Source: Pseudomonas sp. KU43P (GTDB lineage Bacteria > Pseudomonadota > Gammaproteobacteria > Pseudomonadales > Pseudomonadaceae). Taken from it: a DNA stretch of 64,000 bases. Of the stretch, positions 14,988 through 61,084 are shown one piece after another. The notes beneath the pieces were generated by a model that was given only the letters and a program-made list of their open reading frames with translations, searched no databases and had not been told where the DNA came from. The translations under genes and the position numbers were made by a program. The stretch's first letter is position 1. Each line of letters opens with the position of its first letter. The stretch lies in contig NZ_AP019365.1 in the NCBI RefSeq assembly GCF_033095865.1, positions 4,747,501-4,811,500 on the forward strand. Reading direction: 5' to 3'.

Positions 14988-15061
14988 GCGGGTATAGTTT
15001 AATGGTAGAACAGTAGCTTCCCAAGCTTCCGACGAGGGTTCGATTCCCTCTACCCGCTCCA
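14988..15061 (+). tRNA. tRNA-Gly (anticodon CCC)
   Basis: A complete 74-nt tRNA with encoded CCA. The acceptor stem pairs GCGGGTA with TACCCGC, the T arm is GAGGG-TTCGATT-CCCTC, and the anticodon loop TTCCCAA carries CCC, which reads the GGG glycine codon. In the anticodon stem (GTAGC with GCTTC) positions 28 and 42 form a U-U mismatch. No integrase or duplicated 3' end is present nearby, so it does not look like a used attachment site. Confidence 0.95.
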
Positions 15062-47327: not shown

Positions 47328-47342
47328 GTTCGATTATCGCCC
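47328..47342 (+). promoter_or_regulatory. PcaR-like box upstream of the OprD porin
   Basis: GTTCGATTATCGCCC matches the box before pcaR (GTTCGATAATCGCAC) at 13 of 15 positions. It lies 150 bp upstream of the porin start, which suggests that the porin is a member of the PcaR regulon. Confidence 0.65.
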
Positions 47343-47470
47343 TGTTCCGTTTGCGGCGAATTGCCTCACCCCCGCCCCACCCCGCACCATCCTTCACGCA
47401 ACGTTGCACCTGGTTCATCAAACAGCCCCGCCCCTGCAGGCCGCACCCTGCAGCGCACCGGCTCGCCAAT

Positions 47471-53125: not shown

Positions 53126-54415
53126 TTAGTCGTCATGGTGCAGGTACGCCGCTTGTTTCGGCAGCCGCAGGCTGAACAGGAAAGCAATCGCCATCATGGC
53201 AGTCACGTACCAGTAAAAGGTGTTCTCCATGCCCATGGTTTTCAAGCCCAGGGCCACGTACTCGGCCGAGCCGCCGAACAACGCGTTGGCCACTGCATAG
53301 GCAAGACCCACCCCCAGTGCGCGCACCTGCGGCGGGAACATCTCGGCCTTCACCAGGCCACTGATCGAGGTGTAGAAACTGACGATACACAGAGCCAGGG
53401 TCACCAGCACGAAGGCCATGAACGGGCTGCTCACGGTTTTGAGCGCCATCAGCAAAGGCACGGTGAAGATCGTACCCAGGGCGCCGAACAACAGCATCGA
53501 ATTACGCCGGCCGATGCGATCGGAGAGCATGCCGAAGAACGGCTGCAGCACCATGAACAGGAACAGTGCGCCGGTCATCACGAAGCTGGCGTTCTTCGCG
53601 GTCATCCCGGCCGTGTTGACCAGATACTTCTGCATGTAGGTGGTGAAGGTGTAGAAGATCAGCGAGCCGCCTGCGGTGTAGCCAAGCACGGTGATGAAGG
53701 CTGCGGCATGATTGCGGAACAGGCCCTTGATCGAGCCAGCGTCCTTGTCCTTGCGGGTTTCGGCGCTGCTGGTCTCGTGCAACGAGCGGCGCAGCATCAG
53801 CGAGATCAGTGCGGCGATGGCACCGACCACGAATGGAATCCGCCAGCCCCAGGCACGCAGTTCGTCCTCGCTGAGCAGTTGCTGCAGGATCACCACCACC
53901 AGTACAGCCAGCAACTGGCCGCCAATCAGGGTGACGTACTGGAATGACGCGAAGAAGCCGCGCTGGCCACGCAAGGCCACCTCACTCATGTAGGTCGCGG
54001 TAGTGCCGTATTCGCCACCCACCGACAGGCCCTGGATCAATCGGGCCAGCAACAGCAGCGCCGGCGCCCAGGTGCCAATGCTGGCGTAGGTCGGCAGGCA
54101 GGCGATCATCAGCGAGCCGAAGCACATCATCAGCACCGAGATCATCAGCGAATTCTTGCGCCCATGGCGGTCAGCCAGGCGGCCGAAGATCCAGCCGCCG
54201 ATGGGGCGCATCAGAAAGCCTGCGGCGAACACCCCGGCGGTATTGAGCAACTGCACAGTGGGGTCGTCGGAGGGGAAGAAGGCCGGCGCGAAGTAGATGG
54301 CGCAGAAGGCATAGACGTAGAAGTCGAACCATTCCACCAAGTTGCCTGATGAGGCACCGACGATGGCGAAGATGCGCTTACTGCGTTCTTCGCCGGTGTA
54401 ATAGGCTGAGGTCAT
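53126..54415 (-). CDS. pcaT: MFS dicarboxylate carrier PcaT
   Basis: PcaT is a metabolite:H+ symporter proposed to move beta-ketoadipate or related dicarboxylates across the inner membrane. The 429-residue protein has [16 protein letters not shown] in helix 1, [36 protein letters not shown] and [20 protein letters not shown]; it is a paralogue of the carrier at 26 kb. The ATG at 54415 follows AGGAG 11 bases away. It heads pcaT-B-D-C and is preceded by a palindrome and a REP, so it probably has its own promoter. Confidence 0.9.
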
Positions 54416-55978: not shown

Positions 55979-56012
55979 ATCCGATAATCGAGTATAAGTG
56001 CGGTTATCGAAC
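55979..56012 (-). promoter_or_regulatory. pcaF promoter with PcaR boxes
   Basis: The box GTTCGATAACCGCAC (minus strand, 55998-56012) matches the pcaR-proximal box at 14 of 15 positions and is followed by a TATACT -10 element (55991-55996). A second, weaker box overlaps CGATAATCG at 55982-55990. The arrangement predicts PcaR activation of pcaF with a start near 55984. Confidence 0.78.
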
Positions 56013-57431: not shown

Positions 57432-57668
57432 ATCCAGAAGTTGGGCACGGGCGGACCACTGCAGCGATGCAGGATCAAGTACGGGCAAGTGCGAGCTTTT
57501 GTCAGCCTGGAAACAACAGCACTGCGAGCGGGTGCGGCCGCAGCAGCGAATGGACAGTGATCATGAAGGTGCGCCTCTTATGTTTTTCTTGTTCGGTCGG
57601 CAAAGCCGACCGCTGCGAGAGACATTAATCAGCGAACGGAAGGGGTGCAATTCACCAGGAACGACACT

Positions 57669-57683
57669 GTGCGTTTATCGCAC
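57669..57683 (-). promoter_or_regulatory. PcaR-like box of pcaK
   Basis: GTGCGATAAACGCAC (minus strand) resembles the PcaR box and is itself a 5-bp dyad (GTGCG/CGCAC). It lies 245 bp upstream of the pcaK start. Confidence 0.62.
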
Positions 57684-57724
57684 AAGAAACGGCGGGTGTG
57701 TTCGAAATCGGTCGGGGCCGCTTT

Positions 57725-57759
57725 GCGTCCGATCGCCGGCTTGCCGGCGATTGGACCGC
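57725..57759. repeat. Single REP hairpin after pcaR
   Basis: A compact REP (core ATCGCCGGCTTGCCGGCGAT) 11 bp after the pcaR stop probably serves as its transcript end. Confidence 0.75.
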
Positions 57760-57769
57760 ATGCAGCCTG

Positions 57770-58645
57770 TCAACCAAACAACTGATGGCAAAGATCACGG
57801 CTGGCCGCCAGCAGGATCGGCAGGAACCTCTGCTCCAGCTCACTGCGGCTCACCCGCCCGACATGGGTACTGACATTCAGCGCCGCCAGAACCTGGCCTG
57901 AAGCATCATAGATCGGCACCGCGATCGACCTCAGCCCCTGCTCCAGCTCCTGATCGACCACGCACCACCCCTGCGCCCGCACCTGCTGGATGCAGGCGAA
58001 CAACGACTCAGGGTCATGCACGGTACGGCTGGTACGCGCCTTGAGGTCGGCACGATCGAGGTATTCGCGCAGGCTGGTGTCGTCCATCGCCGCCAGCAGA
58101 ATGCGGCCCATCGAGGTGCAATAGGCCGGCAATCGCCCACCCACCGAGAGGTCGACCGAGATCAACCGTTCGACCGTGGCCGATCGAGCTATATAAAGGA
58201 TGTCATCACCCTCGAGGGTGGCCATGTTGGCCGCCTCGTGCAACTGGTCGCTGATGCGATCGAGGTATGGCTGGGCCGACACCGCCAGCGGCGTCGACGA
58301 AAGGTAGGCATGCCCCAGGGTCAACACTTTGGGCAGCAACGAATAGGTACGGCCATCGGTGGTGGCGTAGCCGAGCTTGATCAGCGTGTGCAGGCAGCGG
58401 CGCACGGCGGCCCGGGGGATCTCGGTACGGTGGCTGATCTGGGCGATCGTCAGGTGGCGCTTGCGCTCCTGAAACGCCTGGATCACCGCAAGCCCACGGG
58501 CCAGGGAGGTCATGAAATCCGGGTCGCCGGTAAACGCCTGGATACGCTTGGCCGGTGAGGCCACGATCGGCGGTGCGAGGGCCGGCGAATTCGGGCGAGC
58601 CGCGTCGGGATTGTCGGATTCGTTGGCCTGGGTTTGGTCGCTCAT
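57770..58645 (-). CDS. pcaR: IclR-family regulator PcaR
   Basis: PcaR activates the pca genes (pcaIJ, pcaBDC, pcaK, pcaF) in response to beta-ketoadipate. The 291-residue protein has a long N-terminal tail, a winged helix (FMTSLARGLAVIQAFQERKRHLTIAQISHRTEIPRAAVRRCL) and an IclR effector domain (LSVGGRLPAYCTSMGRILLAAMDD, VVDQELEQGLRSIAVPIYD). The ATG at 58645 is preceded by GAGGTGAGCG. Two boxes matching its own target lie 30-60 bp upstream, so it is probably autoregulated. Confidence 0.95.
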   Translation of the reverse strand: MSDQTQANESDNPDAARPNSPALAPPIVASPAKRIQAFTGDPDFMTSLARGLAVIQAFQERKRHLTIAQISHRTEIPRAAVRRCLHTLIKLGYATTDGRTYSLLPKVLTLGHAYLSSTPLAVSAQPYLDRISDQLHEAANMATLEGDDILYIARSATVERLISVDLSVGGRLPAYCTSMGRILLAAMDDTSLREYLDRADLKARTSRTVHDPESLFACIQQVRAQGWCVVDQELEQGLRSIAVPIYDASGQVLAALNVSTHVGRVSRSELEQRFLPILLAASRDLCHQLFG

Positions 58646-58672
58646 CGCTCACCTCAAAAAAATCGCTAGCTC

Positions 58673-58706
58673 GTGCGATTATCGAACGAACGGCCGATAA
58701 TCGCAA
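58673..58706. promoter_or_regulatory. Two inverted PcaR boxes
   Basis: The minus-strand box GTTCGATAATCGCAC (58673-58687) faces pcaR. The plus-strand box GGCCGATAATCGCAA (58692-58706) faces the small RNA candidate. They share the CGATAATCG core and lie 4 bp apart, so PcaR could control both directions. Confidence 0.78.
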
Positions 58707-58737
58707 TTGACCGCCGACAAATTTACTTATACCTTTC

Positions 58738-58829
58738 CCCTGCCACCTTGTGGCTTCTTTGGAGAGACTGGTCAGGTACCCACCGTAGAAGTCCCAGGCA
58801 GCGGCCTCGCCTAGTGCGAGGCCGTTTTT
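58738..58829 (+). ncRNA. Candidate small RNA divergent from pcaR
   Basis: About 90 nt with no credible reading frame end in a strong terminator. A TTGACC (58707-58712) and TATACC (58728-58733), 15 bp apart, form a possible promoter that directly abuts a PcaR box. Inside, GCCAC-CTT-GTGGC (58742-58754) is a hairpin, CTTCT (58754-58758) can pair with AGAAG (58787-58791), and a GGAGAGA stretch lies in the loop. It is not a known family that I can recognise. Its position suggests expression tied to PcaR. Confidence 0.5.
58802..58829 (+). terminator. Strong rho-independent terminator
   Basis: CGGCCTCGC and GCGAGGCCG form a perfect 9-bp stem with a 5-nt loop followed by T5 on the plus strand. No protein-coding gene on that strand ends here, so it must end a non-coding transcript. 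Confidence 0.93.
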
Positions 58830-58942
58830 CATTTCCCCCTGCCTTTTACAAAAACAGCGCTGAACTTCAATGCCGCTGCCCGCTCAAAGTTTGCACAGAT
58901 CGACAACTTGCAACAGTCGATGTCAACCGTCGGTAAATAACC

Positions 58943-58971
58943 CTGTTTGACATGTTTCCGATTGCTATAAT
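58943..58971 (+). promoter_or_regulatory. Extended -10 promoter of the 66-residue protein gene
   Basis: TGCTATAAT (TATAAT at 58966-58971) is a consensus extended -10. A -35-like CTGTTT is 17 bp upstream (58943-58948), and a TTGACA is also present but too close (13 bp). The leader to the GTG at 59102 would be about 125 nt. Confidence 0.7.
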
Positions 58972-59101
58972 CGATTCTGCTGGCGCGGATCGATACACCG
59001 GCACTGCGAGCACTCCTGCCACCGGCCATCCAGCACACCCAGTGCATGGGCAACTTGCACCTGCATACAACACCGGCATTTACAAGCATTCAGGTATTAC
59101 T

Positions 59102-59302
59102 GTGACGAAAGATGAACTGCGCGCGGAACTCGAGCGCCAGGCTGAACGTTACAAGGAAGTTTACGGTGGCGAAGTCACCACTTACGCCGCTCAACCCGAA
59201 CCCGAACGCAAACCTTGGCGCAAACGTGCCACCGTTCAGGATCAGGCGTTCAGCCAGGAATTGGAAAAGATGGAAAAGGAACTGCGCAGCGAAGAACCCT
59301 GA
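59102..59302 (+). CDS. Small conserved-looking hypothetical protein, 66 residues
   Basis: A GTG start at 59102 with CAGG 7 bases upstream opens a 66-residue, highly charged, mostly helical protein ([37 protein letters not shown]). It has no signal or membrane segment. It has its own consensus promoter, which supports expression. I recognise no domain; coiled-coil dimerisation is plausible. It lies between the pca cluster and pit. Confidence 0.68.
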
Positions 59303-59611
59303 GCTGCCCAGCGCCATCGCGTCGTGGGCCTACGCCCTCGGCGCGGCCGATCTTTACCGATTGGCCGTCGATGAAATGGAATTACACAAATTTCATACAA
59401 CCGTTTGAACGGTGAATTGCCCTTGCCGTTTTCGTAAAATTGGCGAAATTCATCTGATTTTGCGATTTTTAGCGGAACTTTTTCCGTTTCAGCAGGTCTT
59501 TTCGAGCCTTGAGATGCACCTCACAACGCTGCCGCTGGTCAGCAGTGGGTGCATCGATTGCCAAGGTTTTCTGGCATAATCCCGCCCCCCTATGACCGCC
59601 AGACAACCTTC
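59303..59611 (+). promoter_or_regulatory. pit upstream region
   Basis: This 309-bp gap holds a small dyad (ACCGT-TTGA-ACGGT, 59400-59413), an AT-rich block around 59440-59480 and an extended -10 (TGGCATAAT, 59572-59580) 32 bp before the pit start. No Pho box (paired CTGTCAT) is visible, which fits a constitutive low-affinity transporter. Confidence 0.5.
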
Positions 59612-61084
59612 ATGATCGATTTATTCAGCGGACTGGATGCCTGGGTATTGGTGAGCCTGCTGCTCGCCTTGACCTTCGTGCTCGCCTTCGAGTTCATCAA
59701 TGGCTTTCATGACACCGCCAATGCGGTAGCTACCGTCATCTATACCAAAGCCATGCCACCACACCTGGCCGTATTCTTCTCAGGGGTGTTCAACTTCCTC
59801 GGCGTTCTGCTCGGCGGTGTCGGGGTGGCCTATGCCATCGTTCACCTACTGCCGGTCGAACTGCTGATCAACGTGAACACCGGCCACGGCCTGGCCATGG
59901 TCTTCTCGTTGCTGGCCGCGGCCATCACCTGGAACCTGGGCACCTGGTACTTCGGCATCCCCGCCTCCAGCTCGCACACTCTGATCGGTTCGATCCTCGG
60001 TGTGGGCCTGGCCAACGCCCTGATCAACGACATCCCGCTGGGCGATGGCGTCAACTGGCAGAAGGCGATCGACATCGCCATGTCGCTGGTGGTCTCGCCC
60101 ATGGCCGGCTTCGCTGTCGCCGCCCTGGTGCTGATCGGCCTGAAATGGTGGCGCCCGCTGTCGAAGATGCACAAGACCCCGGAGCAGCGTCGCAAGCTCG
60201 ACGACAAGAAGCACCCTCCGTTCTGGAACCGCCTGGTACTGGTGATTTCGGCCATGGGCGTGAGCTTCGTGCACGGTTCCAACGATGGCCAGAAAGGCAT
60301 CGGCCTGATCATGCTGGTGCTGATCGGTATCGTGCCGGCCAAGTTCGTCCTCGACCTGAACAGCACCACCTACCAGATCGAGCGCACCCGTGACGCCACC
60401 ACCCATCTGAGCCAGTTCTACCAGCGCAACGCCGCCACCCTGGGCGAGTTCCTGGCACTGGGCAAGGCTCAGCCGAGCGACCTGCCGGAGCAGTTCAGTT
60501 GCAACCCGCAGCAGACCGAGCCGACCATCGCCGCACTGCAGTCTTCGCTGCAAGGCGTGACCGACTACCGTGCCCTGGACGCCGACAAGCGCGTGGAAGT
60601 ACGCCGCTACCTGCTGTGCCTGGATGACACAGCGAAGAAGGTCGGCAAGCTGCCGGGCCTGGAAGCCCGTGAAAAGGCAGACCTGGAGAAGCTGCGCAAG
60701 GATCTTACCGCCACCACCGAATACGCCCCGTTCTGGGTAATCGTGGCCGTTGCCCTGGCCTTGGGCCTGGGCACCATGGTTGGCTGGAAGCGTGTTGTGC
60801 TGACCGTTGGCGAGAAGATCGGCAAGCAGGGCATGACCTATGCCCAGGGCATGTCGGCGCAGATCACTGCGGCCTGTGCTATCGGCATGGCCAACGTATT
60901 TGCCCTGCCAGTGTCGACCACCCACGTGTTGTCGTCCGGTGTAGCCGGTACCATGGTCGCGAACAAGAGCGGCCTGCAAGGCGGTACGGTGAAAACCATC
61001 CTGCTGGCCTGGGTGTTGACCCTGCCAGCCTCCATGGGCCTGGCGGCCGGCCTGTTCTGGCTGGCGTCCAAGGCGATTAGCTGA
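59612..61084 (+). CDS. pit: Inorganic phosphate transporter Pit
   Basis: This 490-residue low-affinity phosphate transporter of the PiT family imports metal-phosphate with protons. The duplicated PiT signature is present: EFINGFHDTANAVATVIYTKAM near the N-terminus and GVSFVHGSNDGQKGIGLI in the middle, plus PASSSHTLIGSILG and PVSTTHVLSSGVAG. A large hydrophilic loop (residues 260-385) is typical of the PitA subgroup. It starts at the ATG at 59612 and ends 20 bp before a terminator. Confidence 0.95.
   Translation: MIDLFSGLDAWVLVSLLLALTFVLAFEFINGFHDTANAVATVIYTKAMPPHLAVFFSGVFNFLGVLLGGVGVAYAIVHLLPVELLINVNTGHGLAMVFSLLAAAITWNLGTWYFGIPASSSHTLIGSILGVGLANALINDIPLGDGVNWQKAIDIAMSLVVSPMAGFAVAALVLIGLKWWRPLSKMHKTPEQRRKLDDKKHPPFWNRLVLVISAMGVSFVHGSNDGQKGIGLIMLVLIGIVPAKFVLDLNSTTYQIERTRDATTHLSQFYQRNAATLGEFLALGKAQPSDLPEQFSCNPQQTEPTIAALQSSLQGVTDYRALDADKRVEVRRYLLCLDDTAKKVGKLPGLEAREKADLEKLRKDLTATTEYAPFWVIVAVALALGLGTMVGWKRVVLTVGEKIGKQGMTYAQGMSAQITAACAIGMANVFALPVSTTHVLSSGVAGTMVANKSGLQGGTVKTILLAWVLTLPASMGLAAGLFWLASKAIS

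Follow-up and report, generated by a model that had tools for sequence, protein, structure and literature searches.

Does the DNA divergent from pcaR encode a regulatory RNA and, if so, which message would that RNA act on? This question arises from a window of 64,000 nucleotides (the whole stretch of Pseudomonas sp. KU43P DNA analysed here), where an original prediction had placed a candidate small RNA beside the gene for a regulator of the β-ketoadipate pathway, which we take to be pcaR from synteny and from P. putida annotation. The prediction combined a -35/-10-like pair, roughly 90 nt of structured sequence without a credible reading frame, and a terminator, and each of these elements was recovered (Table 1). 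Taken together, the sequence evidence strongly supports the interpretation of the plus strand at 58737-58830, divergent from pcaR, as a conserved small-RNA gene. The likely transcript, about 90 nt long, runs from near 58740 to near 58829. The end of the span first claimed (58673..58829) therefore holds, and its start does not, as position 58673 lies in the operator.

Table 1. Coordinates of features at the pcaR-small RNA locus, numbered from the first nucleotide of the window
Feature	Positions	Strand	Evidence
pcaR, IclR-family regulator of the β-ketoadipate pathway	57770..58645	-	Open reading frame; pcaR match in 130/130 fetched operator loci
PcaR-like box 1, GTTCGATAATCGCAC on minus strand	58673..58687	-	0 mismatches to GTTCGATAATCGCA; centre at about -60 from the predicted RNA start
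PcaR-like box 2, GGCCGATAATCGCAA	58692..58706	+	2 mismatches; centre at about -41 from the predicted RNA start
Predicted -35 element TTGACC	58707..58712	+	In 118/120 loci with the RNA and 1/10 operator-match loci without the RNA loop
Predicted -10 element TATACC	58728..58733	+	Operator-locus alignment; 15-nt spacer in most loci
Small RNA gene (strongly supported)	58737..58830	+	Covariance model R1 match, 92.7 bits, E 5.8e-18, this sequence being one of the model's 48 members; alignment A1; z -2.83
5' arm of pairing-loop hairpin	58752..58759	+	Helix 1: 7 pairs, 5 changed on both sides, 96.0% of cells paired
Conserved pairing loop ACTGGTCAGGTACCCAC	58767..58783	+	Perfectly complementary to GTGGGTACCTGACCAGT, which is in this genome's sdhC leader
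3' arm of pairing-loop hairpin	58787..58793	+	Covariation analysis (helix 1)
Intrinsic terminator, GGCCTCGC-loop-GCGAGGCC plus T tail	58800..58829	+	Terminator scan (58800-58826); helix 2: 10 pairs, 7 changed on both sides, 98.1% of cells paired

The putative promoter elements are conserved with the RNA and are followed by an intrinsic terminator, which points to an independent transcription unit. The spacer before TATACCT is 15 nt in 97 of the 120 RNA-bearing loci and 16 nt in another 14; a sigma-70 scan returned no TTGACC-TATACC entry because it demands a spacer of 16-18 nt and the spacer here is 15 nt. The stretch 58736-58830 has a predicted folding energy of -39.4 kcal/mol (z -2.83), matched by 2 of 200 shuffled sequences. 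An alignment for covariation in the stems, which had been suggested as a check, was made from 48 non-redundant sequences (A1), and both helices, those of the loop hairpin and of the terminator, covary. Both sides had changed in 12 of the 17 helix pairs, and 97.3% of cells were paired, compared to 92.6% after shuffling and at most 55.5% when the helices were slid. The terminator scan is weak by itself (4 terminator-like sites in 57500-60000, compared to 2.1 expected), and thus covariation carries the terminator assignment. By eye, the T tail in A1 is mostly 4-5 nt long and at most about 7 nt, a length that would be poor for Hfq. Likewise by eye, insertions and deletions of 1-2 nt run throughout A1, and no stable reading frame was found in it.

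Sequence from the boxes through the terminator is conserved in more than 100 genomes of the genus. The query 58646-58860 was matched in 284 of 398 genus genomes, where many of the matches cover the boxes only. We fetched 130 operator loci (30 plus 100) from the top of this list of 284 together with some box-only matches; the RNA loop core is present in 120, and the other 10 are operator matches without the loop. Besides pcaR, the fetched loci contain a small downstream gene (125 loci) and pit (121 loci), with some flanks being short; the corresponding counts among the RNA-bearing loci are 118/120 and 116/120. In these RNA-bearing loci the small gene lies between about 345 and 933 nt from the pcaR start, while the RNA block keeps a fixed position; these distances and the small-gene identities are rough, since the query was mis-framed at its start. 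The small gene, which is hypothetical and lies at 59103-59302 of the window between the RNA and pit, is itself conserved.

The covariance model matched 161 of the 398 genus genomes at E ≤0.1. Scores of at least 49.7 bits were obtained in 121 genomes, a number that includes the 48 model sequences, which match by construction; these were followed by G185 (40.1 bits), G266 (34.5 bits), and the rest at 30.9 bits or less. The strong matches are loci beside pcaR in 120 of the 121 genomes, and the remaining copy (G212) is on a contig fragment. The RNA copies of G185 and G266 also adjoin pcaR. At 29.5 bits, G242 has a hairpin and terminator beside pcaR (L378:1190-1330) with the loop CGCTCAGGAGCCCATC and without TTGACC, and this element is perhaps a decaying copy of the RNA. 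The weak matches in G553, G439, and G491 were rejected as RNA copies, as none contains the loop motif. An order-wide search (145 genomes, our own aside) returned two clear matches in genomes of the same family (44.8 and 35.3 bits) and eight others at 28.9 bits or less, and a plasmid search gave no match. Among the loci collected on either side, L131, L182, L228, and L237 come from contigs titled Pantoea sp. Ap-967 or Cy-639 that bear Pseudomonas-type sdhC or pcaR loci, and these labels look wrong.

No target had been proposed for the RNA, and the sequence now shows one. The loop ACTGGTCAGGTACCCAC, which is almost invariant across RNA-bearing loci, is perfectly complementary in its own genome to positions -62 to -46 (relative to the start codon) in the leader of sdhC, the first gene of the succinate dehydrogenase operon (sdhCDAB). 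The GTGGGTACCTGACCAGT site lies outside the window, around G000:C1:1932329-1932341. Exact copies of CTGGTCAGGTACC occur only twice in this genome, in the RNA and in the sdhC leader; allowing one mismatch gave 11 matches, compared to 13 for the reversed control, which leaves no further long target apparent. When named genomes were scanned for exact copies of the loop core, at least 119 stretches were returned, of which 45 are by pcaR and 74 elsewhere among the matches listed. Of these 74 listed matches, 71 lie between gltA and sdhC, where the core is on the gltA strand, and the remaining 3 are single stretches in Marinimicrobia, Kribbella, and Bacteroidetes contigs. An sdhC promoter-like site, TTGTCA-17-TATACT, precedes the complement, and this hexamer pair is found in 99 of 100 sdhC leaders; a gltA promoter-like site, TTGACA-16-TATAGT, stands on the opposite strand beyond the loop core. 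This arrangement implies that GTGGGTACCTGACCAGT should be transcribed as part of the sdhC leader; from the strand and the promoter positions, the second copy of the core is read as the sdhC leader, and the alternatives of another RNA or a gltA leader were rejected. The leader is about 118 nt long in this genome (L250:1443-1560) and contains a 5' hairpin-like stretch as well as, around the ribosome-binding site, a small GCCC/GGGC hairpin whose arms are present in 100 of 100 leaders. An Rfam search of five sdhC-side loci found no family at the pairing-site element.

The presence of the RNA and of the full site go together. We paired 100 sdhC leaders, chosen to cover both kinds of genome and not at random, with RNA status and found that the 17-nt site is retained in 61 of 62 RNA-bearing genomes compared to 6 of 38 RNA-less genomes. 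In the single exception (G138), the site reads GATGGG and the RNA CATC, which is one exchanged pair, with three mismatches beside the core. RNA-less sites that lack the full complement read ATGGG (9), GTGGTT (7), GTGAGT (5), AGGGG (4), GTGCTT (4), or otherwise (3). Moreover, the longest perfect complement between the DNA upstream of pcaR and the sdhC site of the same genome measures 15-20 nt in 60 of the 61 RNA-bearing genomes compared, where the predicted fold would expose the loop for pairing, and 10 nt in G138; in operator loci without the RNA it is 6-8 nt (10 of 10). Two genomes outside the set of 100, G185 and G266, combine ATGGG-type sites with weak RNA copies, which implies that some of the 38 RNA-less genomes may hide diverged copies. 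Of the 38 RNA-less genomes, 35 retain the downstream (3') part of the site, TACCTGACCAGT, so something besides the RNA conserves it; PrrF or leader structure may be the explanation. Overall, the sequence evidence strongly supports pairing between the loop and the sdhC leader.

The shorter string ACTGGTCAGGTANNCA occurs in 361 of 398 genomes, with a reversed control near zero in each. Most RNA-bearing genomes have two copies and most others one. We considered whether genomes with altered sdhC sites carry a compensating second copy of the loop, and rejected this idea, as most of these genomes have one ACTGGTCAGGTANNCA copy among the matches listed. Three genomes without a strong RNA match (G090, G053, and G213) have extra ACTGGTCAGGTANNCA copies, which could be relocated loops.

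Matched changes on both sides of the duplex were found in a second genus (g3). A search of 119 genomes of the family returned 12 g3 genomes at 35.3-44.8 bits, in addition to our own genome and G553 (30.9 bits). In all 12, the RNA carries ACTTGTCAGGTACCCC (loop ACTTGTCAGGTACCC) and the sdhC site reads GGGTACCTGACAAGT, such that CTGG/CCAG has changed to CTTG/CAAG on both partners together. Two named Azotobacter sdhC leaders read CTGG, which speaks against Azotobacter as the identity of g3. The g3 RNA adjoins pcaT in 11 of 12 genomes, with PcaT 74-76% identical to that of the window (53126-54415); in G600, the pcaT match is weaker (54%) and farther from the RNA. Thus, the link to β-ketoadipate genes survives relocation. 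Predicted duplex energies for one cognate pair of each genus are -39.7 and -38.6 kcal/mol, compared to -27.8 and -30.0 kcal/mol after the partners are swapped, so that a swap between genera costs about 9-12 kcal/mol for these pairs. In 75 genomes with 20 distinct loop/site pairs, cognate partners pair at 16.8 of 18 positions compared to 16.0 after shuffling, and 0 of 5000 shuffles were as high, although the genomes are related by descent and the shuffles therefore overstate the independence of the matched changes. The g3 change may be one event; by eye, there are about three separate matched positions, and independent events are few. The g3 loop has one mismatch inside the 18 positions, several mismatches in or beside the core occur in G138, G185, and G266, and pairing is weaker in the most diverged copies.

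We conclude that the RNA is very probably a trans-acting, base-pairing small RNA of the pca regulon that would control sdhCDAB through the sdhC leader. The arrangement of the locus, with the hairpin and then the terminator on the same strand as the small gene and pit, could also be read as a cis-acting attenuator or riboswitch for these downstream genes, with no free RNA involved. We regard this reading as highly improbable. The gap from pcaR to the small gene varies while the RNA block is fixed, no structure that competes with the terminator appears in the consensus fold, and the RNA of the second genus stands elsewhere, beside pcaT, so that a fixed linkage to a regulated downstream gene was not found; nor would an attenuator account for a loop perfectly complementary to sdhC. 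Similarly, a nearly invariant, aptamer-like loop core, in which GGTACC is self-complementary, might be a binding motif for a protein or ligand, and its complementarity to sdhC might be incidental. Matched substitutions that preserve pairing, and the loss of the full site in most RNA-less genomes, are unexpected under such a motif, which leaves it very little probability.

Control by PcaR is a separate matter. The two PcaR-like boxes are inverted and 4 bp apart, as originally described (Table 1), and we take the box motif GTTCGATAATCGCA to be the PcaR motif. The window contains 15 matches to this motif with at most 3 mismatches, compared to 2.9 expected from shuffling. Other PcaR-like boxes (1-3 mismatches) lie upstream of pcaF (55999-56012, minus strand), upstream of pcaK (57669-57683), and at 47328-47342, directly before a porin-like open reading frame at 47361. 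The pair stands at the predicted RNA promoter, and the same boxes also serve pcaR. Of the 10 operator loci in which the RNA loop is absent, 8 keep the boxes; hence, conservation of the boxes proves nothing about the RNA.

This retention is what would be expected if the RNA were real and outside PcaR control, with the boxes belonging to pcaR alone, an arrangement that we consider rather unlikely. Against it, the box centres at about -41 and -60 fit activation, and from these positions PcaR might activate the RNA and at the same time repress pcaR. In addition, where the g3 RNA adjoins pcaT, a PcaR-like box stands upstream; this box, GTTCGAATATCGGAC, is exact in 9 of 12 loci and agrees with the PcaR box at 12 of 15 positions by our own count. 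These two observations make PcaR control of the RNA plausible. In P. putida, most pca genes are under PcaR control. PMC2907835 cites a study titled for activation and repression by PcaR through the -35 and -10 elements.

Our working model is that a dedicated promoter next to the pcaR operator would drive an RNA of about 90 nt, and that the hairpin of this RNA would present a loop of 17-18 nt that zips onto the sdhCDAB leader, 46-62 nt upstream of the sdhC start. Pairing would adjust the synthesis of succinate dehydrogenase to flux through the β-ketoadipate pathway, which yields succinate and acetyl-CoA as its net products. We lean towards the fuller version, in which an RNA, switched by PcaR at the promoter of pcaR in one clade and of pcaT in another, would sense β-ketoadipate and retune the TCA cycle at succinate dehydrogenase. 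Given these products, either sign of regulation would make sense: more Sdh could be needed on aromatics, with the RNA activating, or a repressor RNA could be shut off by PcaR to release a brake.

Repression is the sign that we favour by a little, through a duplex that would cover the leader just upstream of a CAACAAC stretch and of the hairpin that holds the ribosome-binding site. Candidate steps after pairing are a standby block at the A/C-rich stretch, recruitment of a nuclease, or protection against Rho and RNase E. Predicted folds with and without the site covered were compared in 80 of 110 leaders, the other 30 being ones that simple motifs did not anchor. In RNA-bearing leaders, predicted access to the ribosome-binding site was unchanged in 45 of 59, increased in 12, and decreased in 2; in RNA-less leaders, it was slightly increased in 16 of 21. 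The step that follows pairing is thus not visible in the predicted fold, and unmasking of the ribosome-binding site is unsupported as a mechanism in most RNA-bearing leaders. The lack of clear unmasking also speaks against activation, as does the fact that the sdhC-targeting small RNAs Spot 42, RyhB, and PrrF are repressors. Still, an RNA that pairs with sdhC and activates it is a possibility of some substance, if a doubtful one. A need for more Sdh follows logically from the net products of the pathway, the pairing site is distant from the ribosome-binding site, on its 5' side, and the duplex could displace PrrF or keep Rho or RNase E off the leader with its roughly 118 nt, so that Sdh would rise as aromatics supply succinate. 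In this connection, one PrrF copy (L360) holds CUGAAAGCCCCU, which looks complementary by eye to the sdhC ribosome-binding region AGGGGCUCUUCAG.

If the favoured reading of an sdhC-pairing RNA switched by PcaR is correct, the pca regulon would have an RNA arm, with a small RNA and its target co-evolving across two genera, and the TCA cycle would be retuned when aromatic carbon enters as succinate and acetyl-CoA. The breakdown of aromatics would then be linked to central metabolism through the sdhC message, and the RNA would offer a simple engineering handle for aromatic-using Pseudomonas strains. Much work has gone into both the pca pathway and succinate dehydrogenase, partly for lignin conversion, and no RNA that joins them was found among Rfam models or in the titles and abstracts of the literature searched. 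A conserved small RNA with one long, perfect site and natural compensatory changes provides a clean, testable case of a peripheral catabolic regulon adjusting the TCA cycle.

As had been suggested at the outset, the RNA region was searched against Rfam, and no family matches it. In the whole window, Rfam 15 gave nothing above the gathering score except a tRNA at 14988-15058, and in 58630-59110 it gave one weak match (E 3.2) outside the RNA and on the opposite strand. The loop and site strings are absent from the 5.39 million open-access papers searched as text. Judged by titles and the beginnings of abstracts, the papers listed on pcaR small RNAs, KT2440 small RNAs, Pseudomonas sdhC small RNAs, and pcaT small RNAs show no such RNA; the transcript may be listed in a supplementary small-RNA catalogue without a function. 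One candidate, a novel KT2440 small RNA, was rejected: it maps to another locus (PP_5401/PP_5402, Pit174), and the apparent mentions of pcaR refer to plasmid pCAR1 (PMC7324555).

Several known systems resemble the pca-linked RNA in part. The sucA-II leader motif (RF01758) is likewise a structured leader element of the sdh-suc region, and was present in four of five loci searched; however, it belongs to another family and acts in cis from the opposite side of the sdh genes, more than 3 kb away in L131. In enteric bacteria, the small RNAs Spot 42 and RyhB tune sdhCDAB by carbon or iron supply. They involve other regulators and other sites, and no such Rfam family matched the window. RNAs of the GcvB or IstR type pair at a position far 5' of the ribosome-binding site, close to an A/C-rich stretch, a mechanism that for the pca-linked RNA is only suggested by position. 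PrrF1 and PrrF2 (RF00444) are iron-responsive, trans-acting small RNAs of Pseudomonas that repress sdhC. Our genome has two PrrF copies, both outside the window, and no PrrF match was found within it. The pca-linked RNA differs from PrrF in sequence, locus, and presumed signal, and its proposed pairing site is 46-62 nt 5' of the start codon. The possible pairing of PrrF CUGAAAGCCCCU with AGGGGCUCUUCAG would then be a second small-RNA site on the same sdhC leader.
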